Positions 1,564 through 63,513 of a stretch of DNA of 64,000 nucleotides are shown here, in pieces. A program made the translations under genes and the position numbers. The stretch comes from an uncultured SAR86 cluster bacterium (GTDB lineage: Bacteria > Pseudomonadota > Gammaproteobacteria > Magnimaribacterales > D2472): contig CABWZP010000003.1 in the NCBI GenBank assembly GCA_902509965.1, forward strand, positions 28,425 to 92,424, given 5' to 3'. The notes beneath the pieces are model-generated. The model saw only the letters and a list, made by a program, of their open reading frames with translations. It had not been told where the DNA came from and searched no databases. How positions within the stretch are numbered: the first letter of the stretch is position 1; the number at the start of each line of letters is the position of its first letter.

Positions 1564-1569
1564 ATTATG
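1564..1569 (-). promoter_or_regulatory. candidate -10 of smpB, 6 bases from the start codon
   Basis: Reverse-strand CATAAT (5 of 6 to consensus) is followed by six bases and then the smpB ATG. A weak TTGCAG lies 16 bases further upstream at 1586-1591. No ribosome-binding sequence is present, so a transcript from here would be leaderless or nearly so. Confidence 0.4.
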
Positions 1570-1614
1570 AATGCACTAAAAACAACTGCAACTCTTAATA
1601 GGAATTAATTAATT

Positions 1615-2061
1615 TTGAATATTATAGAATTAAAAAAAACACTTGGTTACATGGGGTTTATACCATTTTGTTTTTTTTCAATAATGCCTTGGATAATTGG
1701 TGGCGAACTAGCAAATTATTCAATCTTAGCTCTTGCGCTATACAGCGCTATTATTCTTTCATTTCTTGGTGGTATACCATGGGGATGGAGCGATAATAAT
1801 TTTTCCCAAACAATAAACCTAATAGTGGGAATATCTTTTTCTTTATTAGGATGCCTTATCCTCGCTATAGCATTTATAAATCTGATGGTAGCTTTATTTT
1901 TATGCCTTATAGGTTTTAATGGGTTTTATTATTTTGAAAGCAAAAGAGATATACTTTTTGATCAAAAAATAGAGTACAAAGAGTTAAGAAAAATGCTCAC
2001 AGTTTTAGTATCAATCTGTTTTTTAGTAACTATTGCTTATATAGTTAACCCTTATAGTTAG
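1615..2061 (+). CDS. DUF3429-like integral membrane protein
   Basis: A 148-residue hydrophobic protein with about four or five membrane segments. The loop SFLGGIPWGW resembles the conserved LSFLGGIxWG motif of the DUF3429 family of small proteobacterial inner-membrane proteins, whose function is unknown. The start chosen is a TTG at 1615, which has AGGA 11 bases upstream; the next in-frame ATG would cut into the first membrane segment. It stands between smpB (divergent) and the sodium symporter gene, 20 bases before the latter, so the two probably form one transcript. The family assignment is by recognition of the motif only. Confidence 0.7.
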   Translation: MNIIELKKTLGYMGFIPFCFFSIMPWIIGGELANYSILALALYSAIILSFLGGIPWGWSDNNFSQTINLIVGISFSLLGCLILAIAFINLMVALFLCLIGFNGFYYFESKRDILFDQKIEYKELRKMLTVLVSICFLVTIAYIVNPYS

Positions 2062-2081
2062 ATTATTTTTAGGAAATAAAT

Positions 2082-3434
2082 ATGGATAAGCTCTCAAAAC
2101 TTAAAAGTCATGGTTCATGGGTAGGAAGATGGACTTTTATTTTAGCAGCTACAGGTTCTGCAGTTGGACTAGGTAATATATGGGGCTTCCCTTATAAAGC
2201 TGGAACAAATGGAGGAGGAGCTTTTGTAATAATTTATTTATTATGTATTTTAGCAATAGGCATTCCAATAATGATAAGTGAAATAATTATTGGAAGAAGA
2301 TCTGGAAATAGTCCAATCAATGCTATGCGATTAGTTGCAAGAGATTCTAATACCACTTCAGCTTGGCAAATTGTTGGCTGGAGTGGAATAGCGGCAGGAA
2401 TCTTAATATTATCCTTTTACAGTGTTATAGCTGGAATCTGTTTAAATTATATATTTATTGCTGCCACATCAACTGGTGTAATTAACTCAGCTGAACAATT
2501 TGGAAATATTATTTCTTCTCCTCTAAACCTATTAGCCTGGCATACGTTATTCATGTTTCTAACGGCAACAATAGTCTCTGCTGGTATAAACAGAGGCATT
2601 GGAAGAATGGTAAAAATATTAATGCCAATGCTAGGAGTCTTGTTAATTTTTATGGTTATAAATGGAATTCTTAGCGGCGGCTTTGCCAGAGCATTCTCAT
2701 TTCTTTTTGCTCCTGATTTTTCGCAAGTAAATTCAAATACTTTTCTAAGTGCAATGGGGCAAGCATTTTTTAGTTTAAGTTTAGGTATGGGTTCAATCAT
2801 GGCTTATGGCGCATATATGCCAAAAGAACAAAAAATAATACCAACTTCTTTCACAGTTGCTTCACTAGATACATTGGTTGCAATATTTGCAGGCTTAGCA
2901 ATTTTTCCAATCATATTTGCATTTGGATTAGAGCCGAATAGTGGACCAGGACTTGTTTTTGAGTCACTTCAAACCGCTTTTAATCAAATGTCTTATGGCC
3001 AAATTGTAGGACCGTTATTTTTTATACTTTTATCAGTTGCCGCATTAAGCTCATCTATATCATTACTTGAACCTGGAGTTGCATTTATTTCTGAAGAAGG
3101 ATCTATGAGCAGAAAGTCAGCTGCAATATCAATTTCCCTTGTTACTTGGATATTGGGCATAGGAACAGTACTCAGTTTTAATTTATGGAGTGATTTTAAT
3201 CTAACCCCCGGAAGAAACTTTTTAGATTCTATGGATTTTATTGCTAATCAGATACTTCTTCCCTTAGGAGGAATGTTGATAGCAATCTTTGTTGGTTGGT
3301 TTATGGATAAAAATCTTATAAACGAAGAAATTGGTGACGTTAATCCGATCCTATATAGCACATGGAGATTTTTTGTTAAGTTTATTGCCCCAATATCAGT
3401 TGCAATAATTTTCTACAATGCAATTTTTGGTTAA
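2082..3434 (+). CDS. Neurotransmitter:sodium symporter (NSS/SNF family)
   Basis: A 450-residue membrane transporter of the SNF/NSS (LeuT-type) family. The first helix carries the sodium-binding sequence ATGSAVGLGNIWGFPYKAGTNGGGAF, which is the family signature. About 11-12 membrane segments follow. In this family the proteins co-transport amino acids or related amines with Na+ across the inner membrane; the substrate cannot be read from the sequence. AGGAAA before the ATG is a good ribosome-binding site. The stop codon is directly followed by the ratA ATG, so it shares a transcript with ratA-rnfH. Confidence 0.93.
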   Translation: MDKLSKLKSHGSWVGRWTFILAATGSAVGLGNIWGFPYKAGTNGGGAFVIIYLLCILAIGIPIMISEIIIGRRSGNSPINAMRLVARDSNTTSAWQIVGWSGIAAGILILSFYSVIAGICLNYIFIAATSTGVINSAEQFGNIISSPLNLLAWHTLFMFLTATIVSAGINRGIGRMVKILMPMLGVLLIFMVINGILSGGFARAFSFLFAPDFSQVNSNTFLSAMGQAFFSLSLGMGSIMAYGAYMPKEQKIIPTSFTVASLDTLVAIFAGLAIFPIIFAFGLEPNSGPGLVFESLQTAFNQMSYGQIVGPLFFILLSVAALSSSISLLEPGVAFISEEGSMSRKSAAISISLVTWILGIGTVLSFNLWSDFNLTPGRNFLDSMDFIANQILLPLGGMLIAIFVGWFMDKNLINEEIGDVNPILYSTWRFFVKFIAPISVAIIFYNAIFG

Positions 3435-3851
3435 ATGCCAAGCAAGTTTAATTATGAAGAATTTGTAGCCAAAGACTCTAAAGAAGTTTTTGAATTAATT
3501 TCAAACTTTTCAGAGTATAAAAACTTTTTACCCGGATGCACGAATTCTGAAATTTTATCAAGCTCGGAAGAATATGAGATTGGAAAACTAGATTTTAATT
3601 TTTTCAATAAAGACTACACCATTGAATCTAAGAATATAAAGTCTTCGTCTGAACTAACTATAAAACAACTAAAGGGCCCTTTTAATTCTTTTGATGCCTC
3701 ATGGAAAGTTACAAAAAAAGATGCAGGATGTTTAGTAAATTTCTCTGCAGAGTTTAAAGCTCCATTTTTTATGCAACCTTTTATGCAAAAGAGTCTGATA
3801 GATATATTTGCTGGTAAATTTATTAATGCATTTATAGGCAGATTGCTATGA
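3435..3851 (+). CDS. ratA: RatA/CoQ10-like START-domain protein
   Basis: A 138-residue protein of the type II toxin RatA / Coq10 START-domain family, with the usual features SKEVFELISNFSEYKNFLPGC near the start and a C-terminal helix (LIDIFAGKFINAFIGRLL). In E. coli RatA has been reported to interfere with 70S formation, while relatives bind ubiquinone; which applies here is unknown. The gene begins at the base after the preceding stop and overlaps rnfH by the classic ATGA. The ratA-rnfH pair near smpB and bamE is conserved in gammaproteobacteria. Confidence 0.9.
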   Translation: MPSKFNYEEFVAKDSKEVFELISNFSEYKNFLPGCTNSEILSSSEEYEIGKLDFNFFNKDYTIESKNIKSSSELTIKQLKGPFNSFDASWKVTKKDAGCLVNFSAEFKAPFFMQPFMQKSLIDIFAGKFINAFIGRLL

Positions 3852-4126
3852 AGATATTTTTTACTTATCAAGGAGAGCAAAAGAAATTCTTTTTTTCATT
3901 AGAGGTTTCAGAAAGCTCAACAGTGAGTGAAATATTAGAAATTCCTAGAGTTAAAAGGATCATAGAATCTTTATCTCATGAAATAGTCATTGGAGTTAAT
4001 GGTGAGATTTTAGACGGCAACTTTAAACCTATTCCTGAAAGGTTTAGATTATCTGAGGGGCAGAGAGTTGAGCTATATCGGCCCTTAAATCAAGATCCAA
4101 AAGAAAGGAGAAGGCAAAAAGCTTAA
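3848..4126 (+). CDS. rnfH: RnfH family ubiquitin-like protein
   Basis: A 92-residue protein of the RnfH (UPF0125) family. It has a beta-grasp pattern with EVSESSTVSEILE and the conserved ending LSEGQRVELYRPLNQDPKERRRQKA (RVEIYRPLxxDPKxxRRxRA in relatives). It overlaps ratA by four bases (ATGA) and shares the four bases TTAA with the convergent bamE stop. Its biochemical role is not established in the family. Confidence 0.93.
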   Translation: MKIFFTYQGEQKKFFFSLEVSESSTVSEILEIPRVKRIIESLSHEIVIGVNGEILDGNFKPIPERFRLSEGQRVELYRPLNQDPKERRRQKA

Positions 4127-4452
4127 TTAATATCCTCTAGAATCCAGCTATCAAGAAGTTCATTTGAATCAAAATAGAGTGTAAGTTTTTTATCAGAAAT
4201 AACTAAATCACCAACTGTAACTTTATTAACATAGTCCCACCTATTTTTATGGAATGGGCTTTGAATCATGGCAGTACCAAGAATGAACTTAACCTGATCT
4301 TTTGATAGGCCTTTAGCAAGATTATTAAGATCTTTTTCTTCATATAAATTGCCCTGAACAATAGGGACATTATAAAAACTAAATGTACTGCAGGCACCTA
4401 GAAAAGATAATGTAAGAATTACTGCGAAGATCTTTTTTTGATTTAGTTTCAT
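4123..4452 (-). CDS. bamE: Outer membrane protein assembly factor BamE (lipoprotein)
   Basis: A 109-residue lipoprotein. A signal peptide with lipobox LGAC gives a mature N-terminal cysteine near residue 21. The SmpA/OmlA domain follows, with LSKDQVKFILGTAMIQSPFHKNRWDYV, matching BamE (L..GMTk.QV...LGtP...dpF...RWdYV). It is a subunit of the BAM complex that inserts beta-barrel proteins. It is divergent from fur, as in many gammaproteobacteria, and converges on rnfH with a shared TTAA stop. Confidence 0.95.
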   Translation of the reverse strand: MKLNQKKIFAVILTLSFLGACSTFSFYNVPIVQGNLYEEKDLNNLAKGLSKDQVKFILGTAMIQSPFHKNRWDYVNKVTVGDLVISDKKLTLYFDSNELLDSWILEDIN

Positions 4453-4483
4453 TAATTAGCGATTTAAAAGTTATCTTTATATT

Positions 4484-4515
4484 TTGACAATATGGATTAT
4501 ACTTCGTTCTATAAC
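4484..4515 (+). promoter_or_regulatory. candidate sigma-70 promoter of fur
   Basis: A perfect -35 hexamer TTGACA lies at 4484-4489. Candidate -10 sequences follow at 4507-4512 (TTCTAT, 17-base spacing) and at 4510-4515 (TATAAC, wide spacing). The leader would be about 20 bases without a clear Shine-Dalgarno sequence. No convincing 19-bp Fur box was seen here. Confidence 0.45.
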
Positions 4516-4538
4516 AGATACGAAAATAAATTTAAAAA

Positions 4539-4955
4539 ATGTCAGAACAGAATTTTGAATTAAAAAAAACAGGTCTTAAGGCAACACTACCAAGAATACG
4601 TATTCTTGAAGTCCTTGATGCTACAAAAGGTGAGGAAGCTCACCTAAGTGCAGAAGATATATACAAAGAACTTTTAGCAGCTGGTGAAGATGTTGGCCTT
4701 GCAACTGTATATCGAGTCCTTACTCAATTTGAATCAGCTGGGATTGTTAAAAAGCATAATTTTGAAGAAGGTCATGCTGTTTATGAAGTAATTTCTGATG
4801 AACATCATGACCATATGGTTTCTATAGAAGATGGAACTATATATGAGTTTCATGACGAGATTATAGAAGAAAGACAAAAAGAGATTGCTGCAGCTAGAGG
4901 ATTTGAGCTCGTCGAACATAGTATGGTGTTATACGTAAAGAAAATTAACTCATAA
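4539..4955 (+). CDS. fur: Ferric uptake regulator Fur, without cysteines
   Basis: A 138-residue Fur repressor. The DNA-binding part is typical (LKKTGLKATLPRIRILEVL and DVGLATVYRVLTQFESAGIV), and the regulatory metal ligands in HHDH (89-92) and the C-terminal half are present. It controls iron uptake genes by binding Fe2+ and the Fur box. The CxxC of E. coli (C92/C95) is replaced here by S95 and D98, and the whole protein contains no cysteine, so the structural Cys4 zinc site cannot form. Pseudomonas Fur has already lost one of these cysteines, so the protein is probably functional. The gene stands alone before grpE. Confidence 0.96.
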   Translation: MSEQNFELKKTGLKATLPRIRILEVLDATKGEEAHLSAEDIYKELLAAGEDVGLATVYRVLTQFESAGIVKKHNFEEGHAVYEVISDEHHDHMVSIEDGTIYEFHDEIIEERQKEIAAARGFELVEHSMVLYVKKINS

Positions 4956-4969
4956 TTTCCTAAAACCCA

Positions 4970-4998
4970 CTTGAACTAAGCATATAAACCCCAATATA
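4970..4998 (+). promoter_or_regulatory. heat-shock (sigma-32 type) promoter of grpE-dnaK-dnaJ
   Basis: CTTGAA at 4970-4975 and CCCCAATATA at 4989-4998 are separated by 13 bases. This closely matches the sigma-32 consensus (CTTGAA, 13-15 bases, CCCCATnT). It lies between the fur stop and grpE, where a heat-shock promoter for the chaperone operon is expected. Transcription would begin near 5005, just before the grpE ribosome-binding site. Confidence 0.8.
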
Positions 4999-5010
4999 TT
5001 TTTTATTGGG
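4990..5010 (+). promoter_or_regulatory. inverted repeat across the grpE -10 and ribosome-binding site
   Basis: CCCAATA (4990-4996) and TATTGGG (5004-5010) form a perfect 7-bp inverted repeat with a 7-base loop. The right arm contains the GGG of the grpE Shine-Dalgarno sequence. In a transcript reading through from fur the hairpin would mask this site; in a transcript from the sigma-32 promoter the left arm would be absent. Confidence 0.5.
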
Positions 5011-5017
5011 AATAAAT

Positions 5018-5575
5018 ATGTCAAAAAAAATTAAAAAAGAAGATAAATCCTTAAGTGAGGATGAATTAATGAATTCTAATGAGTTAGAGGATGAAGTCTT
5101 GCCTAAAGAAGAAGAGCAAGAAAATTTATCAGATGAAGATGGAGCTCTTCTAAGAGTAGCTGAGCTTGAATCAGCTCTACTAAGGTCAGCAGCTGACTTA
5201 GATAATGCTATGAAAAGATCTATTTTAGAGGTTGATAGAGCCCATAAATATGGAGTTGAAAAGCTGCTCAATGAACTACTTCCTGTTCTAGATAATTTAG
5301 AACAAGCATTATTAAACCTTTCTGAAAATTCATCTTTAGAAGATAAAGAAGGTATCGAGTTAACTTTAAAGTCTTTTGAGTCTGCACTTGATAAATTTGG
5401 AATGAGACCCATCTATCCTGTTAACGAGGATTTTAATCCTGAAAAACATGAAGCAGTAACAATGACAAAAGACGAGAATAAAAGTGATAACGAGGTTGGC
5501 GAAGTTTTCCAGAGAGGATGGGAGCTTCATAATAGGGTTATAAGACCCGCAAGAGTTACAGTTATAAAAAATTAA
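5018..5575 (+). CDS. grpE: Nucleotide exchange factor GrpE
   Basis: A 185-residue GrpE. It has an acidic N-terminus, a long coiled-coil helix region (LRVAELESALLRSAADLDNAMKRS), and the conserved C-terminal beta domain (ALDKFGMRPIYPVNEDFNPEKHEAV, then GEVFQRGWELHNRVIRPARV). It releases ADP from DnaK. The start chosen is the ATG at 5018, preceded by GGGA; a TTG four codons upstream is open but lies within that site. dnaK follows after 12 bases. A sigma-32-type promoter lies directly upstream. Confidence 0.96.
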   Translation: MSKKIKKEDKSLSEDELMNSNELEDEVLPKEEEQENLSDEDGALLRVAELESALLRSAADLDNAMKRSILEVDRAHKYGVEKLLNELLPVLDNLEQALLNLSENSSLEDKEGIELTLKSFESALDKFGMRPIYPVNEDFNPEKHEAVTMTKDENKSDNEVGEVFQRGWELHNRVIRPARVTVIKN

Positions 5576-5587
5576 AGAGGGAATGAT

Positions 5588-7504: not shown

Positions 7505-7518
7505 TTGAGTCATAAATA

Positions 7519-11213: not shown

Positions 11214-11927
11214 ATGTCCAATCTAAAACATAAACGCCTTCTTGTTAAATTCAGTGGCGAATCTGTTGCTGGTGATGATGAGCATGGAATCGACCCCAAG
11301 ATTCTTGATGCAATGGCTAAATCTATAAAAGAGTGTAAAGAAATAGATGCTGAAATAGGTATTGTTATTGGTGGAGGCAACTTATTTCGAGGAGAGAAGC
11401 TAAATCAAGCTGGAATGGATAGAGTTGCAGGTGATCATATGGGTATGTTAGCAACAGTAATGAATGGTATTGCTTTTAGAGATGCTCTCGAAAGAGCAGG
11501 CATTAAAACAAGAGTAATGTCCGCTATTCCTATAGCAGGATTAGTAGAGCATTATGACAGAAGGTTAGCAATTCAACTTCTAAGCGATGGATATGTTGTA
11601 ATATTTACTGCTGGGACTGGAAATCCATTTTTTACCACAGATACAGCTGGTTGCTTGAGAGCAGTTGAGATACAAGCTGATTTAATGTTAAAAGCAACAC
11701 GAGTTGATGGAGTATATTCAGATGACCCTGAAATTAATCCAGAAGCGAAATTCCATCCAGTTCTGTCTTTTGACGAAGCTATTTCTAAAAATTTAAAAGT
11801 TATGGACGCAACAGCTCTAACTTTAGCTCGAGATCACAAACTACCTATTAATGTTTTTAATGTTTCAAAAGAACATGCTCTTAAAGATATTATTTGTGGA
11901 GAACATATTGGTACAATAATATCTTAA
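11214..11927 (+). CDS. pyrH: Uridylate kinase (UMP kinase)
   Basis: A 237-residue UMP kinase of the amino acid kinase family, which makes UDP from UMP. Motifs include RLLVKFSGES, GIVIGGGNLFRG, and the phosphate- and substrate-binding FTAGTGNPFFTTDTAGCLRA. DGVYSDDPEINPEA is also typical. The start ATG is four bases after the tsf stop with no clear Shine-Dalgarno sequence, so translation is probably coupled. The E. coli residue is FSGEA; here FSGES is a mild change. Confidence 0.97.
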   Translation: MSNLKHKRLLVKFSGESVAGDDEHGIDPKILDAMAKSIKECKEIDAEIGIVIGGGNLFRGEKLNQAGMDRVAGDHMGMLATVMNGIAFRDALERAGIKTRVMSAIPIAGLVEHYDRRLAIQLLSDGYVVIFTAGTGNPFFTTDTAGCLRAVEIQADLMLKATRVDGVYSDDPEINPEAKFHPVLSFDEAISKNLKVMDATALTLARDHKLPINVFNVSKEHALKDIICGEHIGTIIS

Positions 11928-28862: not shown

Positions 28863-29636
28863 ATGGACTTTGAAACAATTAAATTAAAAAAAATTAATCG
28901 AATAGGCACTATTACCTTAAACAGACCCAAGGTATTAAATGCTTTCAATGAACAGCTTGTATGGGATTTGCAAGAAGCCACCAGGAATCTTAGAGAGGAT
29001 GATGATGTTAGAGTTGTAATTATAACTGGAGCTGGCAAAGGCTTTACTGCCGGAGCAGACTTAACTGAAAGAACATCAACATGGACTAGCACTAAAGATT
29101 CTCTAAATAGAGGATTCTTACCAACTTTTAAAAACATAATTGAGATGCCAAAACCAGTAATAGGATCAATTAATGGCCCTGCAGCAGGTATTGGCGCTGC
29201 AATTGCAATGGCATGTGACTTAAGAATTATGTCTGATGATGCATATATTTTATCTGTCTTTAGCAATATTGCCATCGTTCCGGATGGAGGTCTTTCATGG
29301 CTATTAACCCGATATTTGGGATATACAAAAGCTTTTGAATATGCAATTGAAGCTAAAAAAATAATGGCAGAAGAATGCATTCATTTTGGAATTGCAAATA
29401 AAAAAGTTCCACTAGAAGATTTAGAATCAGAAACAATTATTTGGGCGGAAAGACTCGCTAAAAGATCTCCTCAATCTTTATCAAATACTAAGAAAATTAT
29501 GAGAAATGCTCTAGAAAAATCATATTTAGAAACTTATGCAGAAGAGGCTGAGATCCAGAATGAGATTTTTGGTAATGAGCAAAATAGAGAAGCTATAAAA
29601 GCTTTCTTTGAAAAAAGAGAGCCAAACTTTGATTAA
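28863..29636 (+). CDS. Enoyl-CoA hydratase/isomerase family protein (PaaG-like)
   Basis: A 257-residue crotonase. LNRPKVLNAFNEQL, the oxyanion-hole segment GAGKGFTAGADLTE, and SINGPAAGIGAAIAMACDLRIMSDDA are present. At the second catalytic site it reads FSNIAIVPDGGLSWLLTRYLG. This matches the PaaG-type isomerase pattern (VPDxGG, Asp in place of the hydratase Glu) more than classical hydratase. It may isomerise double bonds or ring epoxides of CoA esters, but the substrate is unknown. It stands alone behind its own promoter and converges on leuA with a shared TTAA. Confidence 0.85.
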   Translation: MDFETIKLKKINRIGTITLNRPKVLNAFNEQLVWDLQEATRNLREDDDVRVVIITGAGKGFTAGADLTERTSTWTSTKDSLNRGFLPTFKNIIEMPKPVIGSINGPAAGIGAAIAMACDLRIMSDDAYILSVFSNIAIVPDGGLSWLLTRYLGYTKAFEYAIEAKKIMAEECIHFGIANKKVPLEDLESETIIWAERLAKRSPQSLSNTKKIMRNALEKSYLETYAEEAEIQNEIFGNEQNREAIKAFFEKREPNFD

Positions 29637-31291
29637 TCTTCTAGTAATTTACTTAAACCAACAATAATAGCTTCAAAAGATGCTCTAGTGGTGTTTGGAT
29701 TAATTCCAACTCCCCAGCTAGTTATGCCATCTTTTTCTAGTTCAATATAAGCAGCAGCTCTTGCATCTGATCCAGATGATATTGCAGACTGGTGGTAATC
29801 GGAAACTTTCACAATAATATTTAGCTCTTTACAAAGCCCGTTAATAAAAGCATCTATTGGGCCATTTCCTAATCCTGAAATAACAAATTCCTTTGAGTTC
29901 ATCAACATTTTTAGCTCTAGTTGATTCACATCATTTTGAGTTGAGGATAGATGACTTAAGTATGAAAAATCATTTTTAGCTACTAAGAAATGATTTTGAA
30001 AAATATCCCATATCTCGGAGCTGCTTATTTCTTTGCCTGACTCATCAGCTAATTTTTGTATTTTCTGACTCATGCTAATCTGAAGCCTTCTTGGCAATGA
30101 GACTCCATGATCTTTTTCTAACAAGAAAGCAACCCCCCCTTTACCTGATTGAGAGTTTATTCTTACAACTGCCTCATAACTTCTTCCTAAGTCTGCAGGA
30201 TCTATGGGTAAATAAGGAACTGCCCAAATTGGATCATTTGAATCCTTCATTGCTTGGAATCCTTTTTTTATAGCATCTTGATGAGACCCAGAAAAGGCTG
30301 TGAATACAAGATCTCCAGCATAAGGATGTCTAGGATGAACAGGTAATTGATTACAATACTCAACTTCCCTCATAACAGAATTAATATTAGAGAAATCTAA
30401 TTTCGGATCTATACCTTGCGTTAGCATATTAAGAGCAATGGTAACGATATCTACATTCCCCGTTCTTTCACCATTCCCAAATAATGTACCTTCAACCCTA
30501 TCAGCACCAGCCATTAATCCAAATTCAGATGCAGCAACAGCAGTTCCTCTATCATTATGAGGATGAAGACTTAAACAAATATTTTCTCTATACTTTAAGT
30601 TATCGTTCATCCACTCAATTTGATCTCCATATATATTTGGAGTTGACATCTCAACAGTTGCAGGAAGATTAATTATAATTTTATGATTAGAAACTTCTTT
30701 TAAAATTTCAGTAACAGCATCACATACTTCTGCTGCATATTTTAATTCAGTGCCTGTAAAGCTTTCTGGAGAATACTCAAAGCTCCAATCAGTATTTGGA
30801 TTTTTTATAGCAAGCTCTTTAATTTTAAGTGCTCCCTGAAGAGCAATTTTCTTTATTCCCTCTTGATCTTGCTTAAATACAACTTTCCTTTGGAGTGTTG
30901 ATGTTGAGTTATAGAAATGAACAATTGCTCTAGGAACACCATTAAGAGATTCGAAAGTTTTTTCAATTAACTCTTCTCTTGCTTGTGTTAAAACTTGTAT
31001 ATTTACATCTGTGGGGATTTTTTTGGATTCTATGAGATCTCTTACAAAATCAAAATCAGTTTGTGATGCAGAAGGAAAACCCACTTCAATTTCCTTGAAA
31101 CCTAATTTGCATAAAAGTGAAAACATTCGATTCTTTCTTTCAGCACCCATAGGTTCTATAAGAGCTTGATTACCATCTCTTAGATCAACTGAACACCAAA
31201 CTGGTGAAACATTAATGATCTTAGAAGGCCACTTTCTTTCCTTAATATCAATAGATTTAAATGGCTTATATTTATTGATTGGATTGTCCAT
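29633..31291 (-). CDS. leuA: 2-isopropylmalate synthase (LeuA type 2)
   Basis: A 552-residue DRE-TIM enzyme, first step of leucine synthesis. The catalytic part has SVDLRDGNQALIEPMG, ERTGNVDIVTIALNM and SLHPHNDRGTAVAASEFG. The C-terminal allosteric domain contains ISGLGNGPIDAFINGL and YHQSAISSGSDARAAAYIEL. This length and domain order match the type 2 LeuA of Pseudomonas and actinobacteria rather than the E. coli type. The other leu genes are not in the window. No Shine-Dalgarno sequence precedes the ATG, but TACAAT lies 6 bases upstream. Confidence 0.96.
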   Translation of the reverse strand: MDNPINKYKPFKSIDIKERKWPSKIINVSPVWCSVDLRDGNQALIEPMGAERKNRMFSLLCKLGFKEIEVGFPSASQTDFDFVRDLIESKKIPTDVNIQVLTQAREELIEKTFESLNGVPRAIVHFYNSTSTLQRKVVFKQDQEGIKKIALQGALKIKELAIKNPNTDWSFEYSPESFTGTELKYAAEVCDAVTEILKEVSNHKIIINLPATVEMSTPNIYGDQIEWMNDNLKYRENICLSLHPHNDRGTAVAASEFGLMAGADRVEGTLFGNGERTGNVDIVTIALNMLTQGIDPKLDFSNINSVMREVEYCNQLPVHPRHPYAGDLVFTAFSGSHQDAIKKGFQAMKDSNDPIWAVPYLPIDPADLGRSYEAVVRINSQSGKGGVAFLLEKDHGVSLPRRLQISMSQKIQKLADESGKEISSSEIWDIFQNHFLVAKNDFSYLSHLSSTQNDVNQLELKMLMNSKEFVISGLGNGPIDAFINGLCKELNIIVKVSDYHQSAISSGSDARAAAYIELEKDGITSWGVGINPNTTRASFEAIIVGLSKLLED

Positions 31292-31297
31292 TAAGCA

Positions 31298-31327
31298 ATT
31301 GTAAATGTTAAAATTTTTTTATGACAA
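31298..31327 (-). promoter_or_regulatory. promoter of leuA, -10 six bases from the start codon
   Basis: Reverse-strand TTGTCA (31327-31322, 5 of 6) and TACAAT (31303-31298, 5 of 6) are separated by 18 bases. Six bases then lead to the leuA ATG. The -35 lies inside the first codons of the divergent holD-like gene. The transcript would start at or next to the AUG. Confidence 0.6.
31306..31314 (+). promoter_or_regulatory. extended -10 of the holD-like gene, six bases from the start codon
   Basis: TGTTAAAAT is an extended -10 (TG, one base, TAAAAT). It is followed by six T and then the ATG at 31321. TTGTCC at 31284-31289, inside leuA, is a possible -35 at 19 bases. There is no Shine-Dalgarno sequence. 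Confidence 0.55.
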
Positions 31328-31761
31328 TTATTTCTTCTAAATCACAAACAATTTTACTAAACATCGGTATTCCTACTTTTATAAAGAGAGAGAATTTAGG
31401 ACAAAAATCTTCAAAATCAATTATCTTCCATAAAAGAGATAAGGTTCTAGCACTTCTTCTAAAACCACTTGAGAAGTATTCAAAGGAAGAGCAGAGTCTA
31501 TTTATTTCCATTATGAATACTATGTCATCTCGAAACTCTAAAAATGAAGAATTATCTGAATCATTTGATCTTAAAAGTGATAAACAATTAAACGAAATAA
31601 TTCAAAAGAAATACAACAAATCAGAAATTATTATTTCATTTGGGCTTAAAGCAAAATTAGATATAGATGTTATTCAGGCACCAAGCCTTTCTTCAATTAT
31701 TTCTAATCCAAATCTTAAAAGACCTTTGTGGGAAAAAATTAAAAAAACATTAACTAACTAA
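31321..31761 (+). CDS. holD: probable DNA polymerase III psi subunit (HolD-like)
   Basis: A 146-residue protein with no strong family signature at first sight. Its C-terminal segment APSLSSIISNPNLKRPLWEKIKK matches the pattern of E. coli HolD (SPALTDLRANPTARAALWQQI). The N-terminal LLNIGIPTFIKRE could correspond to QQLGITQWSLRRP. The gene immediately precedes rimI, exactly as holD does in E. coli. Psi links the clamp loader to chi and SSB. The assignment rests on synteny and this short similarity, so it is an inference. Transcription is probably leaderless. Confidence 0.6.
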   Translation: MTIISSKSQTILLNIGIPTFIKRENLGQKSSKSIIFHKRDKVLALLLKPLEKYSKEEQSLFISIMNTMSSRNSKNEELSESFDLKSDKQLNEIIQKKYNKSEIIISFGLKAKLDIDVIQAPSLSSIISNPNLKRPLWEKIKKTLTN

Positions 31762-48296: not shown

Positions 48297-49199
48297 TTAA
48301 TTATTTTTGTGCAGTTTAGGGTTTAATTCAAGTAGCGATTTATTGATTTTAGCTTCAACTATTCCCGAAGTAGAGTTTCTTATAAACAAAAGGTTATCTT
48401 TATTTGCCAATTCTAAAGCTTTAACAATAGAATTATCTGAAAGAGTAACTTTTGTTCCTGCCGTTAAGTATAAGCCAGCTTCAATAATACAATTATTTCC
48501 TAATGGAATTCCTAAGCCTGAGTTAGCCCCTAACAAACAGTTCTCACCAATTGATATCTTTGTAGTATTTCCGCCTGAAAGTGTTCCCATGGTGCTAGAA
48601 CCGCCACCTAGATCAGAATTAGATCCAACCAAAACTCCTGCAGAAATTCTTCCCTCAATCATGGCTTTGCCCAGCGTCCCAGCATTAAAATTTACAAAAC
48701 CTTCATGCATAATTGTAGTGCCTTCACTTAAATATGCTCCTAATCTAACTCTAGATGCATCTGCAATCCGAACTCCTTTTGGAACAATAAAGTCGGTTAG
48801 ACGTGGGAATTTATCAATAGATTTGATGCTCAAACTTTTATTTTGAAGCTTTGAATTTAAAAGCTTTTTGTCTATCTCCTTTGGTGAGACCGCACCATAA
48901 TTTGTCCAAACCACATTTGGTAAAATTTCAAAAAGTCCTTCCAGACTAATTGAATTAGGTAAAACAAATTTATATGAAAGGAGATGAAGCCTAAGATAAG
49001 CATCGGCAAGATCTTTTATTGGCTTTTCAAGATCCTTTAAATCGCAGTTTACCTCGATTAAATTTTTATTTTGACTAGCTGTAACAAAGTTTTTTTCTCC
49101 AACATACTGATCTTCACCAAATTTAATAAATGGAAAAAAGACATCCAAGATATCTCCATAAGAAGATACTGTAGTTAATCCTAAGGCATTAATTTTCAT
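48297..49199 (-). CDS. dapD: Tetrahydrodipicolinate N-succinyltransferase (DapD, long form)
   Basis: A 300-residue left-handed beta-helix succinyltransferase. FPRLTDFIVPKGVRIADASRVRLGAYLSEGTTIMHEGFVNFNAGTLG, MIEGRISAGVLVGSNSDLGGGSSTMGTLSGG and GLGIPLGNNCIIEAGLYLTAGTKV match the Pseudomonas/actinobacterial DapD rather than the 274-residue E. coli form. It succinylates tetrahydrodipicolinate, whose product DapE later desuccinylates. glnD lies 28 bases upstream on the same strand. Confidence 0.95.
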   Translation of the reverse strand: MKINALGLTTVSSYGDILDVFFPFIKFGEDQYVGEKNFVTASQNKNLIEVNCDLKDLEKPIKDLADAYLRLHLLSYKFVLPNSISLEGLFEILPNVVWTNYGAVSPKEIDKKLLNSKLQNKSLSIKSIDKFPRLTDFIVPKGVRIADASRVRLGAYLSEGTTIMHEGFVNFNAGTLGKAMIEGRISAGVLVGSNSDLGGGSSTMGTLSGGNTTKISIGENCLLGANSGLGIPLGNNCIIEAGLYLTAGTKVTLSDNSIVKALELANKDNLLFIRNSTSGIVEAKINKSLLELNPKLHKNN

Positions 49200-49227
49200 G
49201 AAATTATTATAATCCTCATGTTTTGAT

Positions 49228-56998: not shown

Positions 56999-57006
56999 CA
57001 TCCTCT

Positions 57007-57015
57007 TGTTATAAT
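57007..57015 (+). promoter_or_regulatory. extended -10 of greA, six bases from the start codon
   Basis: TGTTATAAT is a perfect extended -10 (TG, one base, TATAAT). It lies in the 23-base gap between carB and greA. Exactly six bases follow before the greA ATG at 57022, and there is no Shine-Dalgarno sequence. Confidence 0.65.
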
Positions 57016-57021
57016 AATCTT

Positions 57022-57498
57022 ATGAGTAAATCTGCTATTACAAAAGATGGCGAAGCTGCCATTAAAGAGAGGCTAGCAAAGTTGAAGTTTGAAGAAAGAC
57101 CAAAAATTTCTGAATCTATAGCTGAAGCTAGAGCGCATGGCGACTTAAAAGAAAATGCTGAATATCATGCAGCCAAAGAATTGCAAGGCTTAGTAGAAGC
57201 TAAAATAGCTGAAATAGAATCATCTCTTGCAAATGCTCAGGTTATAGATGTTAAAGAAATACCTGAAACTGGTAGAGTGGTTTTCGGCTCGACAATCGAA
57301 TTGTTTGATTTTGAAAATGATGTGTCTGTTACTTATAAAATAGTCGGTAATTTAGAATCTGATCCTGAGATAGGACTAATTTCCATTGATACCCCAATTG
57401 CACGAGGATTACTTGGAAAATATGTAGGCGATGAGGTCACTATTTCAACTCCTGCTGGCTCAATTTCATATGAGGTTGAAAAAGTTAGTCATATATAG
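57022..57498 (+). CDS. greA: Transcription elongation factor GreA
   Basis: A 158-residue Gre factor that rescues backtracked RNA polymerase. The N-terminal coiled coil has ERPKISESIAEARAHGDLKENAEYHAAKELQGLVEAKI; the acidic tip D and E residues (GDLKENAEYHAAKE) that hold the catalytic Mg2+ are present. The C-terminal FKBP-like domain follows (GSTIELFDFEND, IARGLLGKYVGDEV). It usually follows carB, as here. A perfect extended -10 six bases upstream suggests a leaderless transcript in addition to readthrough. Confidence 0.98.
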   Translation: MSKSAITKDGEAAIKERLAKLKFEERPKISESIAEARAHGDLKENAEYHAAKELQGLVEAKIAEIESSLANAQVIDVKEIPETGRVVFGSTIELFDFENDVSVTYKIVGNLESDPEIGLISIDTPIARGLLGKYVGDEVTISTPAGSISYEVEKVSHI

Positions 57499-57504
57499 TC
57501 TTAT

Positions 57505-57510
57505 TATAAA
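57505..57510 (+). promoter_or_regulatory. candidate -10 of rlmE-ftsH, five bases from the start codon
   Basis: TATAAA, within TTATTATAAAAT, ends five bases before the rlmE ATG at 57516. No good -35 or Shine-Dalgarno sequence is present. It sits in the 17-base spacer after greA. Confidence 0.4.
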
Positions 57511-57515
57511 ATTTT

Positions 57516-58088
57516 ATGCATCTTGATAATTGGGGACTAAAAGCTAAAAAACTTGGATATAGATCAAGAGCAGTATTCAAGCTAGAAGAGATTGTCGAAA
57601 AAACAAAAGCCCTAAAGGGATGTAAAAATGTTCTTGATATAGGCGCTGCGCCTGGTGGATGGTCTCAATTTATAAGGCATAGAATAAAAGAAGCTAACGT
57701 TTATGCTCTTGATATATTAGATATCGATCCTATTGATGGGGTTAAATTTCATAAAATAAGAATTGAAGATATAGACAGTACCAAAGAAATTTTTGAACTA
57801 AAGGGCACATTTCATCTTGTTATTTCAGATTTAGCCCCCAATTTAACTGGTATAAGCGTAATTGATGAATCAAATATTTATGAGCTAAATGACATTACTT
57901 TAAATGTTGCTGTAGAATATTTAGATAAGTCCAAAGGTGTTTTCATAATTAAGACTTTTCAAAATAGTATGCTTAAGAAGTTGAAAACTAAAATGAAGGG
58001 TTTATTTGATGATGTGCAGATATTTAAACCTGCTGCATCAAAGAAACAATCTGCTGAAATTTATTTATACGGAGCTTTTAAGGAATGA
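57516..58088 (+). CDS. rlmE: 23S rRNA 2'-O-ribose U2552 methyltransferase
   Basis: A 190-residue RrmJ/FtsJ. The start [13 protein letters not shown] has the first catalytic Lys. The SAM site is [14 protein letters not shown], then SDLAPNLTG (Asp), [10 protein letters not shown] (Lys) and SAEIYLYG (Glu) complete the K-D-K-E tetrad. It methylates U2552 of 23S rRNA in 50S assembly. The N-terminal extension of the E. coli protein is shortened. It overlaps ftsH by ATGA; the rlmE-ftsH pair is a heat-shock operon in E. coli, but no sigma-32 site was found here. Confidence 0.96.
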
Positions 58089-60001
58089 ATAGTAATTTTT
58101 TAAGAAATATAATGGTTTGGGTTATCCTCGGTTCATTATTAATGTACGTTTTTAATAACATAGAGTCTGCAAATGTTAGAGAGCAGATCAGTTATTCTCA
58201 ATTTAGACAAGAAGTTCTATCCGATAGAGTTGCTAAGGTTGTATATAAAGGCGATCAAATGACCATAACTGGTGACAGACTAGATGGTTCAAAGTTTGAA
58301 ACAAACTATCCAATTTTTAAACGAGATGACATGCTAGATAAAGCCATTCAAGAAAATGGAATTATTGCTGTGTATGAGAAAGTTGAACAGCCTTCAATTT
58401 TGTCACAATTACTTGTCGGAGCATTTCCAATATTACTTTTACTTGGAATTTTCTTTTTCTTCATGAGACAAATGCAAGGCGGCATGTCCGGAAAAGGTGG
58501 CCCTATGTCATTTGGTAAAAGTAAAGCCAAGTTAATGGAAGGTGGCAAGGTAAAGACAAATTTCAAGGATGTTGCCGGTTGTGAAGAAGCAAAGCAGGAT
58601 GTGCAAGAGCTTGTAGACTTTTTAAGAGATCCAACAAAGTTTCAGAAATTAGGTGGAAAAATTCCTAGAGGTGTTCTTATGGTAGGTCCTCCAGGTACTG
58701 GTAAGACTCTCCTTGCTAGAGCTGTTGCAGGAGAAGCTAAGGTTCCATTCTTTACTATTTCTGGATCTGATTTTGTTGAAATGTTTGTAGGGGTTGGTGC
58801 TTCAAGAGTAAGAGATATGTTTGAGCAAGCTAAAAAACAATCACCTTGCATTGTATTTATTGATGAAATTGATGCTGTCGGTAGGCATAGAGGTGCTGGA
58901 TTGGGCGGCGGACATGATGAAAGAGAGCAAACTCTTAATCAACTATTGGTAGAAATGGATGGATTTGAAGGAAACGATGGCGTCATTGTAATCGCAGCAA
59001 CAAATAGACCCGATGTTCTTGATCCCGCCCTATTAAGACCGGGAAGGTTTGATAGACAAGTTGTAGTTGATCTTCCCGACATAAGGGGAAGAGAGCAGAT
59101 TCTTAAAGTTCACATGAGAAAAGTCCCGCTTGCTGCTGATGTTGATGCTTCAGTTATAGCAAGAGGAACACCTGGTTTCTCTGGTGCAGATTTAGCTAAT
59201 TTGATAAATGAAGCCGCTTTATTTGCTGCTCGTTATGAAGATAAAAAAATTGAACAATCTCATCTTGATTTAGCTAAAGATAAAATCATGATGGGAGCAG
59301 AAAGGAAATCAATGATTCTAAGTGAAGAGCAAAAAAGAATAACTGCTTATCATGAAGCAGGGCATGCAATCATTGGTAGATTAGTTCCTCTCCATGATCC
59401 TGTTTATAAAGTTACAATAATCCCAAGAGGTAGAGCTTTAGGCGTCACAATGTTCCTTCCAGAAGAAGATACTTACATGCAAAGTAAAGAATACCTCCTA
59501 TCTAGAATATGTGCTTTATATGGAGGAAGAATCGCTGAAGAAATTATTAATGGCCCAAAAGGAATTACAACAGGAGCTTCCAATGATATTGAAGTTGCAA
59601 CAAACATTGCCACAAATATGGTTACCAAATGGGGCCTTTCAGATGTGCTTGGTCCTTTAAAGTTTGGTGAAGATGAAGGCAGTCCATTCTTAGGACGTTC
59701 TGCAACAGCACCTGCAAGTATAAGAAGTGATGAAACTTCAAAAATAATTGATTCAGAAGTGAAGATGATCATTGATACTTGTTACTCAAGATCACAAAAA
59801 CTCTTAAATGATAATTTAGATAAGTTGCATGAAATGGCTTCAGCATTATTAATGTATGAAACTATTAATGCAGATCAAATTGATGACATTATGGCTGGTG
59901 CTAAACCAAGAGCACCAAAAGATTGGTCTGATGATAATGATTCTTCCACTAAAACTAAATCTACTAAAACTTCAATAAAAGGTCCTGCAGAAGAGCTATA
60001 A
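58085..60001 (+). CDS. ftsH: ATP-dependent zinc metalloprotease FtsH
   Basis: A 638-residue membrane AAA protease. Two membrane segments flank a periplasmic domain (residues about 10-120). Walker A is GPPGTGKT near 201, Walker B is [16 protein letters not shown], the second region of homology is [21 protein letters not shown], and HEAGH at 423-427 binds zinc. It degrades LpxC, sigma-32 and damaged membrane proteins in E. coli. folP, which usually follows ftsH, is absent; glmM follows nine bases later. Confidence 0.98.
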
Positions 60002-60010
60002 TTCCTGATT

Positions 60011-61333
60011 ATGGATTTAAAATTTGGAACAGATGGGATAAGAGGGCCTGTTCAAACAGAGATCACTCCTGAGGTCTGTCTTAAGATTGGTCATGCAGCA
60101 GGCATTGTACTTAAAGAAGAAGGTCTCGAAAGCGTCATGATTGGCAAAGACACTCGAGTATCTGGGTATATGCTGGAGGCAGCTTTAGAGGCAGGATTTA
60201 TTGCAGCCGGAATTAATGTACGACTTCTTGGACCAATTCCAACTCCTGGAGTTGCTTATCTTACAAAAACTTCTAGAAAACAATTCGGCCTTGTTATAAG
60301 CGCTTCCCATAACAATTTTCTTGATAACGGTATAAAGATTTTTGATGCTAATGGTGTAAAAATCTCAAGAGATATTGAGCTAAAGATAGAAAAAGTTCTT
60401 AAATCAGATTTAAATCTAGTTGCAACTTCAAGCCTTGGAAAGGCAGAAGCTTTTCATGAATCTACTGCTAGATATATTGAATTCTGTAAGTCGACTGTTC
60501 CATCAGATATATCCTTTAATAACTTGAGAATAGTAATAGATTGTGCAAATGGCGCTTGTTACAAAGTTAGTCCAGAAATATTTAAAGAGCTTGGAGCAGA
60601 GGTTATTCCTTTCGGAGTAGAACCTGATGGTTTTAACATTAATCATGAATGTGGCTCTACCCATCCTGAACTTGCTCAAGAAATGGTTTTAAAGCATAGA
60701 GCAGATTATGGTGTAACTTTGGATGGTGATGGTGACAGAGTCATTCTTATTGACAAAGAAGGTAATATTTTAGATGGTGATGATCTTTTATATATTCTAG
60801 CCTTTGCAAATCCAAATAGAACTGGATCATGGTCAGGAGTTGTAGGAACTCTAATGTCAAATTTTGGACTTGAAAAAGCTATCCAGCAATTAGGTTATAA
60901 ATTTATACGAGCTGACGTCGGAGATAAATATGTCAGTAAAATGCTTACTGAGAAAGGGTGGATGCTTGGGGGTGAAAGTTCAGGTCATATTATATGTAGA
61001 GATCTTGTAAGTACTGGTGACGGCACAATTGCTGCGTTAAAAGTAATTAGTTCATTGCTTATGTTAGAAAAAGATCCTAAAGAGGTCTTAATAAACTATA
61101 AAAAATTTCCGCAAATTAATATCAATATACCAGTAAAGAATAAAGATATTATTAATGACTCAGAAATAACATCATTTGTAAAAGGTATAGAATCAGATAT
61201 TACGGTTGGAAGAGTTTTAGTTCGTCCCTCCGGAACCGAAAGTATCATTAGGGTTATGGTTGAAGCTTCTGAAGAAGCCGTAGCTAAGAAGTTTGCTAAA
61301 GATATTGCAAAACTCATCTCGTCAAAATCTTAA
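60011..61333 (+). CDS. glmM: Phosphoglucosamine mutase
   Basis: A 440-residue mutase that makes glucosamine-1-phosphate for UDP-GlcNAc, feeding peptidoglycan and lipid A (LpxA). It starts LKFGTDGIRGPV. The phosphorylated serine is S99 in SASHNNFLDNGIK, the metal loop is LDGDGDRVILID, the sugar loop GGESSGHI, and the phosphate loop RPSGTESIIRVMVE. Length is typical (445). Confidence 0.98.
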   Translation: MDLKFGTDGIRGPVQTEITPEVCLKIGHAAGIVLKEEGLESVMIGKDTRVSGYMLEAALEAGFIAAGINVRLLGPIPTPGVAYLTKTSRKQFGLVISASHNNFLDNGIKIFDANGVKISRDIELKIEKVLKSDLNLVATSSLGKAEAFHESTARYIEFCKSTVPSDISFNNLRIVIDCANGACYKVSPEIFKELGAEVIPFGVEPDGFNINHECGSTHPELAQEMVLKHRADYGVTLDGDGDRVILIDKEGNILDGDDLLYILAFANPNRTGSWSGVVGTLMSNFGLEKAIQQLGYKFIRADVGDKYVSKMLTEKGWMLGGESSGHIICRDLVSTGDGTIAALKVISSLLMLEKDPKEVLINYKKFPQININIPVKNKDIINDSEITSFVKGIESDITVGRVLVRPSGTESIIRVMVEASEEAVAKKFAKDIAKLISSKS

Positions 61334-61336
61334 ATT

Positions 61337-62086
61337 ATGAGTTTATCTATTATTGGAAATTGGAAGTCAAATGGATCTTTAGAATCAAATAAATCGTGGA
61401 TTCACGATTTTAAATATTCCATTAATGATCCAGAAATTTCTAATGTAGCAATCTGCCCACCTTTTACCTATTTAGACCAAATGATCAGTCTTACATCTAA
61501 TTTAGGTCTCAGTATAGGATCACAAGACATAGATTCATCGAGTGGAGCAAGAACAGGGTCTATATCAATTAATGCTTGTAAAGATATAGGATGTTGTTTT
61601 TCAATAGTTGGACATTCAGAAAGAAGAGAAATCTTTGGTGAAAGTAATATGTATTTAAGGCAAAAATTAATTACAGCTCAAGAAAGTGGATTCCAAGTTA
61701 TTTTTTGTATTGGAGAACCTAAAGAGCAACAATTAGCAGGCACGACAAATAACTTTTTAGAAAAGCAAATAATTGAATCCCTTAGTGATCTTGAGCTTTT
61801 AGATGGTTTTACAATTGCTTATGAGCCAATATGGGCAATTGGCACTGGCAAGATCCCAGATATTAAGGATATAAATGCCACTCATAAATTTATAAAAGAT
61901 ATAGTACAATCGTCATCTAAAAATAACTTCACCCCAAATGTTTTATACGGTGGAAGCGTTACAAGCAAGAATGCAGAAGTTTTATTTAAAGAAAAATATA
62001 TAGATGGAGCTCTTATTGGAGGAGCTTCTCTTAACGGAAAAGAGTTTGCAGAGATTGCAAACATATTTAAGAATAGAGGATTTTAA
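61337..62086 (+). CDS. tpiA: Triosephosphate isomerase
   Basis: A 249-residue TIM barrel. It starts IIGNWKSNGS (usual: GNWKMNG). The catalytic His is H93 in FSIVGHSERREIFGES, and the catalytic Glu is E163 in IAYEPIWAIGTGK, with NVLYGGSVTSKNA as phosphate loop. It interconverts dihydroxyacetone phosphate and glyceraldehyde 3-phosphate. The glmM-tpiA-secG order is classical. Confidence 0.98.
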   Translation: MSLSIIGNWKSNGSLESNKSWIHDFKYSINDPEISNVAICPPFTYLDQMISLTSNLGLSIGSQDIDSSSGARTGSISINACKDIGCCFSIVGHSERREIFGESNMYLRQKLITAQESGFQVIFCIGEPKEQQLAGTTNNFLEKQIIESLSDLELLDGFTIAYEPIWAIGTGKIPDIKDINATHKFIKDIVQSSSKNNFTPNVLYGGSVTSKNAEVLFKEKYIDGALIGGASLNGKEFAEIANIFKNRGF

Positions 62087-62088
62087 GC

Positions 62089-62400
62089 ATGGTAACTTTT
62101 ATAACTGTTTTAAGTATTTTATTAGCAGTCGCAATTATAATTCTTGTGATGCTTCAACAAGGCAAAGGTTCTGATATGGGAGCTGCTTTTGGAGGCGGAT
62201 CTTCTAATTCAGTTTTTGGTGCTACAGGACCAGCAGGTTTTCTAGGAAAGCTTACTTATATGTTAGTTGCAGTATGGATGATTTTAGTTCTTTCATTAGC
62301 GTTTATATTAAAATCACAAAATGCTGAAGAGACTTTTGAAATACTTCCTGAAGAAAACTTGATTGACGAAGTTCAAGAAAACGAAATTCCAACCAGCTAA
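62089..62400 (+). CDS. secG: Protein translocase subunit SecG
   Basis: A 103-residue SecG with two membrane helices joined by a glycine-rich loop: LLAVAIIILVMLQQGKGSDMGAAFGGGSSNSVFGATGPAGFLGKLTYMLVAVWMILVLSLAFI. It assists SecYE in protein export. The acidic C-terminal tail is variable in the family. It ends 14 bases from the convergent metallohydrolase gene, where other gammaproteobacteria have tRNA-Leu. Confidence 0.96.
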   Translation: MVTFITVLSILLAVAIIILVMLQQGKGSDMGAAFGGGSSNSVFGATGPAGFLGKLTYMLVAVWMILVLSLAFILKSQNAEETFEILPEENLIDEVQENEIPTS

Positions 62401-62414
62401 TATTCTAAATTGAA

Positions 62415-63479
62415 TTAATTTACAGACGAAATTTCTATTTCCTCTGAATTTAATGGTAACACCAACATAGTCCCATCATGTGAAGCAGTCCATTCATCTC
62501 TGATTTCATCAACGCCTCTATACATAATATCTTCCATTAGTTGGTTTCTAGGTGCAGGAAGATGATGATAAAAAACTAAATGCTTTACATTTGCTTCATT
62601 TGCAGCTTTTACAACATCTAAAATAGGGGTGTGATAGTCAAGAATATCAACAGTAACAGTATCTACAACAAAATTATTTGTCTTTTTAGCAATATTATTT
62701 ATTCTATCTAGTAACTCAACAGACATAGATTCATGAAACAGCACATCAACGTCTTGAGAGTATGTAATTAAATTTTTATCATATATCGTATCTCCACTAA
62801 TACTGATCGACCTACCTTTATAATCAATTCTAAATCCCAGCGCAGGGTCAACAGGATCGTGAGATACACTATATGCAGTAATTTTAAGATCGCCGTCGTC
62901 AACTAGAACTGGATTTTCTAGATCAATTGTATGTGTCTCGAATCCAACAACATCAAGTGGTGCCAAAATATCTCCATGATGCTCATTTCTAAAAGAATAG
63001 TCTTTTGTGTAAGCTAACTCTATTCCATCAGTAAGCAGCTGTACTCCTTCTGGCCCAAAAACTTTTTGTTTAGAATTTCTTTGTCCAGCAATCCATGTTG
63101 CTATATGAAGATCTGCTATATCAGCTATATGGTCAGAATGAAGGTGTGTATAAAAAACAGCTTCAACTCTATTCCATGGAGTATTCCAGTTATTTAGATT
63201 TTGTATACTTCCATTACCTGTATCAAATATGAATATTTTTGTACCAGCTTGAACCAATATGCAAGCTTCTGCTCTGTTTGGATCATTAATAGGAGATCTT
63301 GAACCACAAACAACAGCAGTTAATGCATCTTCTTTAGGTAAAAATGATTCAGGATTAGCAATATTTGCCATACCTACTTCTAACAACCTATCCTGAAATG
63401 TAGGCTGCCTTAGTAATATTAAACTTAGCACAGTTAGTAAAATTATTAGTAACAGTAAATATTTAAATATTTTAATCAT
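62415..63479 (-). CDS. Membrane-anchored metallo-beta-lactamase-fold hydrolase
   Basis: A 354-residue MBL-fold protein with an N-terminal signal anchor (residues about 5-23, very hydrophobic). The zinc motif THLHSDH gives H112, H114, D116 and H117. SISGDTIYD supplies the bridging Asp, and a late HLVFYHHLPAP the last His. The layout resembles RNase Z/arylsulfatase-like periplasmic hydrolases of marine bacteria; the substrate is unknown. It lies antisense between secG and tRNA genes. A TATAAT ends six bases before the ATG. Confidence 0.85.
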   Translation of the reverse strand: MIKIFKYLLLLIILLTVLSLILLRQPTFQDRLLEVGMANIANPESFLPKEDALTAVVCGSRSPINDPNRAEACILVQAGTKIFIFDTGNGSIQNLNNWNTPWNRVEAVFYTHLHSDHIADIADLHIATWIAGQRNSKQKVFGPEGVQLLTDGIELAYTKDYSFRNEHHGDILAPLDVVGFETHTIDLENPVLVDDGDLKITAYSVSHDPVDPALGFRIDYKGRSISISGDTIYDKNLITYSQDVDVLFHESMSVELLDRINNIAKKTNNFVVDTVTVDILDYHTPILDVVKAANEANVKHLVFYHHLPAPRNQLMEDIMYRGVDEIRDEWTASHDGTMLVLPLNSEEIEISSVN

Positions 63480-63485
63480 TTAGTA

Positions 63486-63513
63486 ATTATATATTTTTTG
63501 TTTATTTTAACAA
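63486..63513 (-). promoter_or_regulatory. promoter of the metallohydrolase gene, -10 six bases from the start
   Basis: Reverse-strand TTGTTA (63513-63508, 4 of 6) and TATAAT (63491-63486) are separated by 16 bases. Six bases follow to the ATG at 63479. No Shine-Dalgarno sequence is present. Confidence 0.55.

Follow-up and report, generated by a model that had tools for sequence, protein, structure and literature searches.

Leaderless genes, whose messenger RNA (mRNA) begins at the start codon, are known from several bacterial groups. The closest described case is that of the TA-led genes, which make up a minor fraction of the genes and in which a Pribnow-box-like signal about 10 base pairs (bp) before the start accompanies very short or missing leaders (Zheng et al. 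2011, PMC3160421). Leaderless genes were reported there in 15 of 239 genomes of gamma-Proteobacteria at an average of 4.5% (3.0–5.7), mostly in Xanthomonadales and Legionellales, with a TG peak ahead of the box in several genomes of low guanine–cytosine (GC) content; the gammaproteobacterial passages of that paper do not name SAR86. In Deinococcus-Thermus, reporter tests show that a −10 element adjacent to the reading frame drives leaderless mRNA and that the motif, when rightly placed, is able to serve as a promoter (Zhong et al. 2025, PMC12340547), and in mycobacteria leaderless transcripts are reported to be a common feature of the genome (PMC3898074, PMC4633059). More broadly, the StartLink paper (PMC9581028) cites 21.6% of bacterial species as predicted users of leaderless transcription, and PMC10783764 lists organisms in which Shine–Dalgarno (SD) sequences are scarce, SAR86 not being among them in its passages on the subject. 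Here we analyse a stretch of 64,000 nucleotides (nt) from an uncultured SAR86 cluster bacterium (the window), in which a first-pass annotation had placed a −10 box 5 or 6 nt before the start codon of six genes and had proposed regular leaderless mRNAs.

The SAR86 share, about 4% of ATG genes, is close to the 4.5% average for gamma-Proteobacteria (PMC3160421); exact-spacing conservation across genera and dependence on spacer length, which set the present work apart from that survey, were tested here. In D. radiodurans the share is about one third of genes and is reporter-tested (PMC12340547), and in mycobacteria transcript starts or ribosome footprints have been measured (PMC3898074, PMC4633059), whereas the SAR86 figure is sequence-based and refers to ATG genes only. 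The leaderless kind is therefore known; what is added here is its likely occurrence in SAR86, a gain at greA that is specific to the lineage, and a link with short divergent spacers. A search of the open-library literature found no paper on leaderless genes in SAR86, which is the sole basis for calling the occurrence new.

The few percent of SAR86-family genes that carry a −10 box 6 nt before the ATG likely make leaderless mRNAs, a reading to which we assign a probability of about 0.86. RNA polymerase would start at the A of the start codon, a placement of +1 that follows from the usual distance between −10 and +1, and would yield an mRNA without a leader. Ribosomes would then begin on the 5′-terminal AUG without an SD site, presumably by 70S or initiator-transfer-RNA-first initiation. 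With such promoters a small genome could accommodate both divergent and operon-internal transcription starts in spacers of roughly 20–40 bp.

SAR86 bacteria are among the most abundant and least cultured of the surface ocean. The genome bin that holds the window comprises 48 contigs (1.08 Mb, 82% complete) and belongs to the SAR86 cluster; among the best 80 of 581 relatives by greA, the four closest named loci (69–75% identity) are three from the SAR86 cluster and one from a Proteobacteria bacterium, and the remaining 76 named loci are at most 56% identical. Spacing was counted in 464 kb of this genome, comprising the window and 20 stretches of 20 kb from outside it (33.7% GC in the sampled part). 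Genes were called from codon usage alone, so that the choice of start was blind to upstream motifs. A TATAAT-like hexamer with at least five of six consensus letters was scored at 45 spacings upstream of ATG, Nx denoting x bases between hexamer and start codon; genes without an ATG start or with fewer than 60 bases upstream were excluded.

A box at N6 preceded 27 of 377 ATG genes, the highest count at any of the 45 spacings, against a mean of 9.7 and a maximum of 16 at the other 44 (Poisson P = 3.9 × 10−6). The adjacent spacings were flat, with 14 genes at N5 and 10 at N7. Hence the genome-wide enrichment at 5–7 bases that the first-pass annotation anticipated is present at 6 and absent at 5 and 7. 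Perfect TATAAT at N6 occurred in eight genes against a mean of 0.9, and dinucleotide-shuffled upstream DNA gave an expectation of 10.0 per spacing against the 27 at N6 (416 genes with all start codons). The excess is demonstrated for ATG genes only; GTG genes (3/59 at N6, mean 1.25) and TTG genes (1/83, mean 1.73) were too few to tell.

The same spacing is on top in G011 (19/307 against 7.8) and G016 (24/340 against 7.5), two genomes of the same SAR86 family (f1). Across the samples of four family genomes, N6 boxes preceded 85 of 1353 ATG genes where 34.5 were expected, an excess of about 4%, and perfect TATAAT was found at N6 in 24 against 3.2. Leaderless transcription is the best reading of the N6 signal, and 'regular' is too strong a word for it. 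Among divergent genes of these genomes the excess rises to about 10% (43 against 11.7 among 298). Weaker boxes, with four of six letters including T1, A2 and T6, add a small excess at N6 (38 against 23.6), and other four-of-six words show none in the same four genomes. Since boxes below five of six letters were mostly left unscored, the leaderless count is likely a lower bound.

Two sister-family genomes have a weaker signal at N6: 9/152 against 3.2 in G020, with no perfect box, and 9/139 against 2.9 in G024, tied with N9 and with one perfect box. In 76 named loci from other Gammaproteobacteria (1.32 Mb, 838 ATG genes) there is no excess, with five genes at N6 and a mean of about 5.5. We searched 121 whole genomes of the order, 34 from family f1 and 87 from three sister families, for the extended form TGnTATAAT (TGNTATAAT) ahead of ATG. 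Family f1 held 97 matches at N6, with at least one in each of the 34 genomes, against 15 at N5 and 13 at N7; many of the 97 are mutual orthologs (for example greA) and not independent events. The 87 sister-family genomes had no N6 excess (19 at N6, 17 at N5, 29 at N7), and the extended −10 form is therefore specific to N6 and to f1. Backward-read control patterns gave 25, 33 and 37 matches at N6, N5 and N7 in f1, although this control is not a like-for-like background, exceeding the N5 and N7 counts of the pattern as well. The reverse complement ATTATA does not rise at N6 (23 against 33.6).

N6 is also the spacing that is conserved. Among the four family genomes the box is kept at N6 in 32 of 50 directional ortholog pairs, as opposed to 50 of 592 at other spacings. 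With ortholog groups set aside if any of their spacers was 15 bp or shorter, 6 of 16 groups had the box in at least two genomes at N6, against 20 of 281 elsewhere, with at most two at any other single spacing.

The best-supported predicted leaderless gene is greA (57022–57498, plus strand), read as TGTTATAAT-N6-ATG, whose extended −10 box TGTTATAAT lies at 57007–57015 on the same strand. Of 23 family sequences, 21 have TATAAT at N6, one has it at N5 and one at N7, and a TG stands ahead of it in 22 of the 23. In the 21 N6 sequences the hexamer and T−15 are invariant and T−16 and G−14 are present in 20, whereas positions −6 to −1 are unconserved (0.13–0.55 bits each). No family sequence (0/23) has an SD tetramer at −20 to −5. 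Outside the order the arrangement is the reverse, with an SD tetramer in 70 and the box in none of 105 genes examined. These comprise the best 29 class-level matches with loci and, as controls, the 76 named loci, none titled SAR86; the two sets may share species, and the four named SAR86-like loci may come from species that are also among the numbered genomes. The leaderless assignment of greA made from the window is thus well supported, and the gene provides a clean comparison in nature: beyond the order it mostly starts from an SD site, and in one family it is predicted to be leaderless. TAAAAT-N6 precedes 2 of 11 sister-family greA sequences; in family f2 it was rejected as a promoter, since by eye it sits within the closing codons of the gene ahead and is read as coding. 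In many Gammaproteobacteria outside the order (for example L100, L104 and L107) the gene ahead apparently encodes the greA SD within its final, LHKEL-like codons; the SAR86 family shows no such overlap.

In smpB (1087–1557, minus strand; CATAAT-N6), also predicted to be leaderless, the box CATAAT at 1564–1569 is preceded by a −35-like TTGCAG at 1586–1591, 16 bp from the −10 and likewise on the minus strand. CATAAT recurs in 10 of 17 family sequences, at N6 in seven and N5 in three, and the same ten have a TTGCA −35-like element at −34 or −33; the remaining seven lack this arrangement. Among other smpB sequences, three of four in f3 have TATACT-N6, two of them identical upstream, and three of four in f4 have TAAAAT or TAGAAT at N7. 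The case for a leaderless smpB is accordingly strong in part of the family, at N5–N6. A transfer-messenger RNA gene (712–1060, tag ANNDNYALAA) lies on the same strand, 26 bp downstream of smpB, and the predicted leaderless smpB promoter may therefore also serve ssrA. In G002, a genus mate represented by a low-completeness bin, the leuA and smpB reading frames are broken, probably through sequencing errors; this genome was retained in the smpB, greA, leuA and holD-like counts.

The holD-like gene (31321–31761, plus strand) owes its name to the first-pass annotation and has no Pfam match at E 0.001. It is predicted to be leaderless here from the extended −10 TGTTAAAAT at 31306–31314 (plus strand), read as TGTTAAAAT-N6. 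Among 16 relatives beside leuA, its own sequence included, the box is at N6 in four of five members of the genus and at N7 in the fifth; in other genera a TATTAT/TAATAT-like box stands at N7–N10 in seven, and four of the 16 have none. Several of these relatives are only 27–33% identical, their orthology being taken from position beside leuA. We therefore regard the proposal with moderate confidence: the box is kept, at N6 in most of the genus, and it shifts to N7–N10 elsewhere. The transcript may have a leader of 0–4 nt, judging from these spacings.

The divergent neighbour, a leuA-like gene (29633–31291, minus strand; TACAAT-N6), is a weak candidate. Its −10-like TACAAT (31298–31303, minus strand) shares with the holD-like box a 29-bp divergent spacer (31292–31320), and since both boxes lie within it, −35 contacts would fall in the opposite coding sequence. 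Of 27 leuA sequences, counting that of the window, 4 have TACAAT-N6; all four come from the window's genus, and a fifth member of it, G003, lacks the box. A firm case at leuA was rejected on this restriction, which weakens the leaderless start proposed for it. A conserved TTAACATTTAC before leuA, identified by eye, more plausibly represents the opposite strand of the box of the holD-like gene.

The displaced boxes bear on a first alternative, that part of the genes have ultra-short leaders, with +1 lying 1–4 nt before the ATG. The holD-like box at N7–N10 in 8 of 16 relatives and the smpB box at N7 in three of four f4 sequences point that way, and conservation at N7–N9 is somewhat raised (6/17, 6/28 and 6/18 directional pairs). 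Against it, the genome-wide peak falls only at N6, which by the usual distance places +1 on the A. Ultra-short leaders are compatible with leaderless transcription of the other genes, and we regard them as unlikely, if still worth weighing.

A second alternative is that the hexamer is an AT-rich, non-SD translation signal that aids ribosome binding on a leadered mRNA. Signals of this kind have been reported in the FCB group (PMC9581028), and SD use in the sampled SAR86 genomes is modest: strict SD tetramers precede 20% of ATG genes, and a control interval has them in 5.8%. The distribution of the box is that of a promoter instead. N6 boxes precede 43 of the 298 divergent genes whose spacer exceeds 15 bp and only 21 of the 623 genes whose spacer is at most 15 bp long (Fisher P = 6 × 10−9, orthologs left in), and are thus rare where genes mostly need a ribosome but no promoter. 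Among same-strand neighbours with a spacer above 15 bp the count is only 16 of 368 against 10.5. By spacer length, the divergent genes with a box number 0 of 11 below 16 bp, 13 of 39 at 16–40 bp, 12 of 69 at 41–80 bp, 10 of 103 at 81–150 bp and 8 of 87 above 150 bp. With orthologs left in, 11 of 64 N6 boxes have the TG of an extended −10 in front of them, compared with 33 of 813 other boxes, and the distance to the ATG is precise to a single base. Divergent enrichment, spacer-length trend and TG enrichment are promoter behaviour, and a translation signal is very improbable.

SD-led starts nevertheless appear to coexist with leaderless ones, as the first-pass annotation proposed, because the 16S ribosomal RNA 3′ end (GGATCACCTCCTTA, found in G005 and G011; no 16S match in G001) has an intact anti-SD and a fifth of the ATG genes have SD tetramers. 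By eye, skp, pepA, carA, POT, NSS and tsf in the window, to which ribosome-binding sites had been ascribed, do have purine-rich, SD-like stretches. SD tetramers accompany 5 of 85 N6 genes and 20 of 148 genes at N4, N5, N7 and N8, which is weak evidence for a difference because the N6 box itself fills the place of the SD.

Several observations weigh against leaderless transcription as we read it. In G005, a genome of the same family, the N6 count is a trend short of significance, 15/329 against 9.5 (P = 0.06), and N1 and N8 each have 16; in the AT-rich outgroup G064 N6 is borderline (8/105 against 4.1, P = 0.05) and N20 has 12. The reversed hexamer TAATAT is also raised at N6 (57 against 32.1), although it is a poor control because it has most of its letters in common with −10 variants. 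Elements resembling a −35 hexamer are no commoner at N6 boxes (13/64) than at others (55/296 and 90/517). Pooled and cross-genome counts contain orthologs of one another, so that their P values are too small. Because the smpB and holD-like boxes stand at N5 or N7–N10 in relatives, some transcripts may carry a few nucleotides of leader. Finally, the ortholog of the metallo-beta-lactamase-fold hydrolase in G009 (74% identity, L354) is SD-led, with a perfect AAGGAGG and no box.

This metallohydrolase (62415–63479, minus strand; TATAAT-N6, the −10 box at 63486–63491 on the same strand) is a second weak candidate. The box is kept in the G001 ortholog (77% identity) as TATACT-N6. By eye, G004 has TATAAT at N9, and G005, G011, G012 and the sister-family G020 have no N6 box. 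The leaderless start proposed for it keeps the backing of one close relative and loses that of the SD-led ortholog and the more distant ones, so it was rejected as a firm case. The difference between AAGGAGG in G009 and TATAAT-N6 in the window may reflect a recent switch of start type.

The six hexamers and spacers of the first-pass annotation are exactly where it placed them when re-read in the sequence. At least five of six letters are found at N6 in 6 of the 52 ATG genes called in the window, whereas the other spacings average 1.39; as N3 has five, the window by itself is weak evidence. The metallohydrolase box falls outside these six because the gene caller set that start further in. That chance alone produces such words, AT-rich upstream DNA (about 33% GC) yielding them at every distance and some ten genes per spacing bearing one by chance in our own sample, is scarcely credible, since in the window's own genome N6 alone stands out among the 45 spacings, N6 is the conserved spacing and the AT-rich outgroup G074 (33% GC) lacks the signal (1/92 against a mean of 2.8). 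Spacing and conservation thus refute chance as an account of the whole class, and chance is the likely reading of single unconserved cases.

Two likely chance cases in the window are rlmE and the gene at 11214. The rlmE box TATAAA-N5 (57505–57510, plus strand) is present and unsupported as a promoter: by eye, none of four genus mates keeps it, and rlmE falls outside the pattern because the N5 count is not clearly raised (14 against 9.7). The leaderless start ascribed to rlmE is therefore not supported. The TAAAAT-N6 ahead of the gene at 11214 was rejected as a promoter case because its letters are encoded by the last codons of the preceding gene; it is retained in G016, which we think is due to that coding role. 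A further candidate box, TATAAT-N6 at 49206–49211 (minus strand), absent from the first-pass list, precedes the gene at 48297–49199 and is not kept in the two orthologs seen, in G005 and G011.

Leaderless transcription at N6 boxes would fit a broader proposal, which we favour by a narrow margin: that a streamlined oceanic gammaproteobacterial family adopted leaderless promoters as a packing device, about one third of divergent starts with spacers of 16–40 bp having a box that would place +1 on the ATG, and that at greA an operon-internal leaderless promoter replaced the ribosome-binding site that in many other Gammaproteobacteria lies within the end of the gene ahead. If true, the class would alter start-site calls in SAR86 genomes, would connect genome streamlining with the loss of 5′ leaders in a testable way, and would bring one more order into the small set of gammaproteobacterial groups for which leaderless genes are reported.

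Other ortholog groups in which the N6 box recurs include ribose-5-phosphate isomerase A (rpiA; 4/4, TTGTATTAT), an MlaC-like protein (3/3, one from outgroup G064), a flavin-reductase-like protein (2/2) and a SpoU methylase (2/2). The SpoU-type methylase loci (L306:17657–18385 and L335:14843–15568, both plus strand) have GATAAT-N6-ATG in two genera, together with a further common upstream stretch resembling ACATGTCGC(n)ATTGTA, perhaps an operator or −35 region. At lexA (L013:14999–15610, minus strand; Pfam LexA_DNA_bind and Peptidase_S24), TTTAAT-N6-ATG lies beside the palindrome CTGTATATATATTCAG, which we take to resemble the consensus SOS box. The lexA ortholog of G011 has a similar palindrome without a box of five of six letters at N6.

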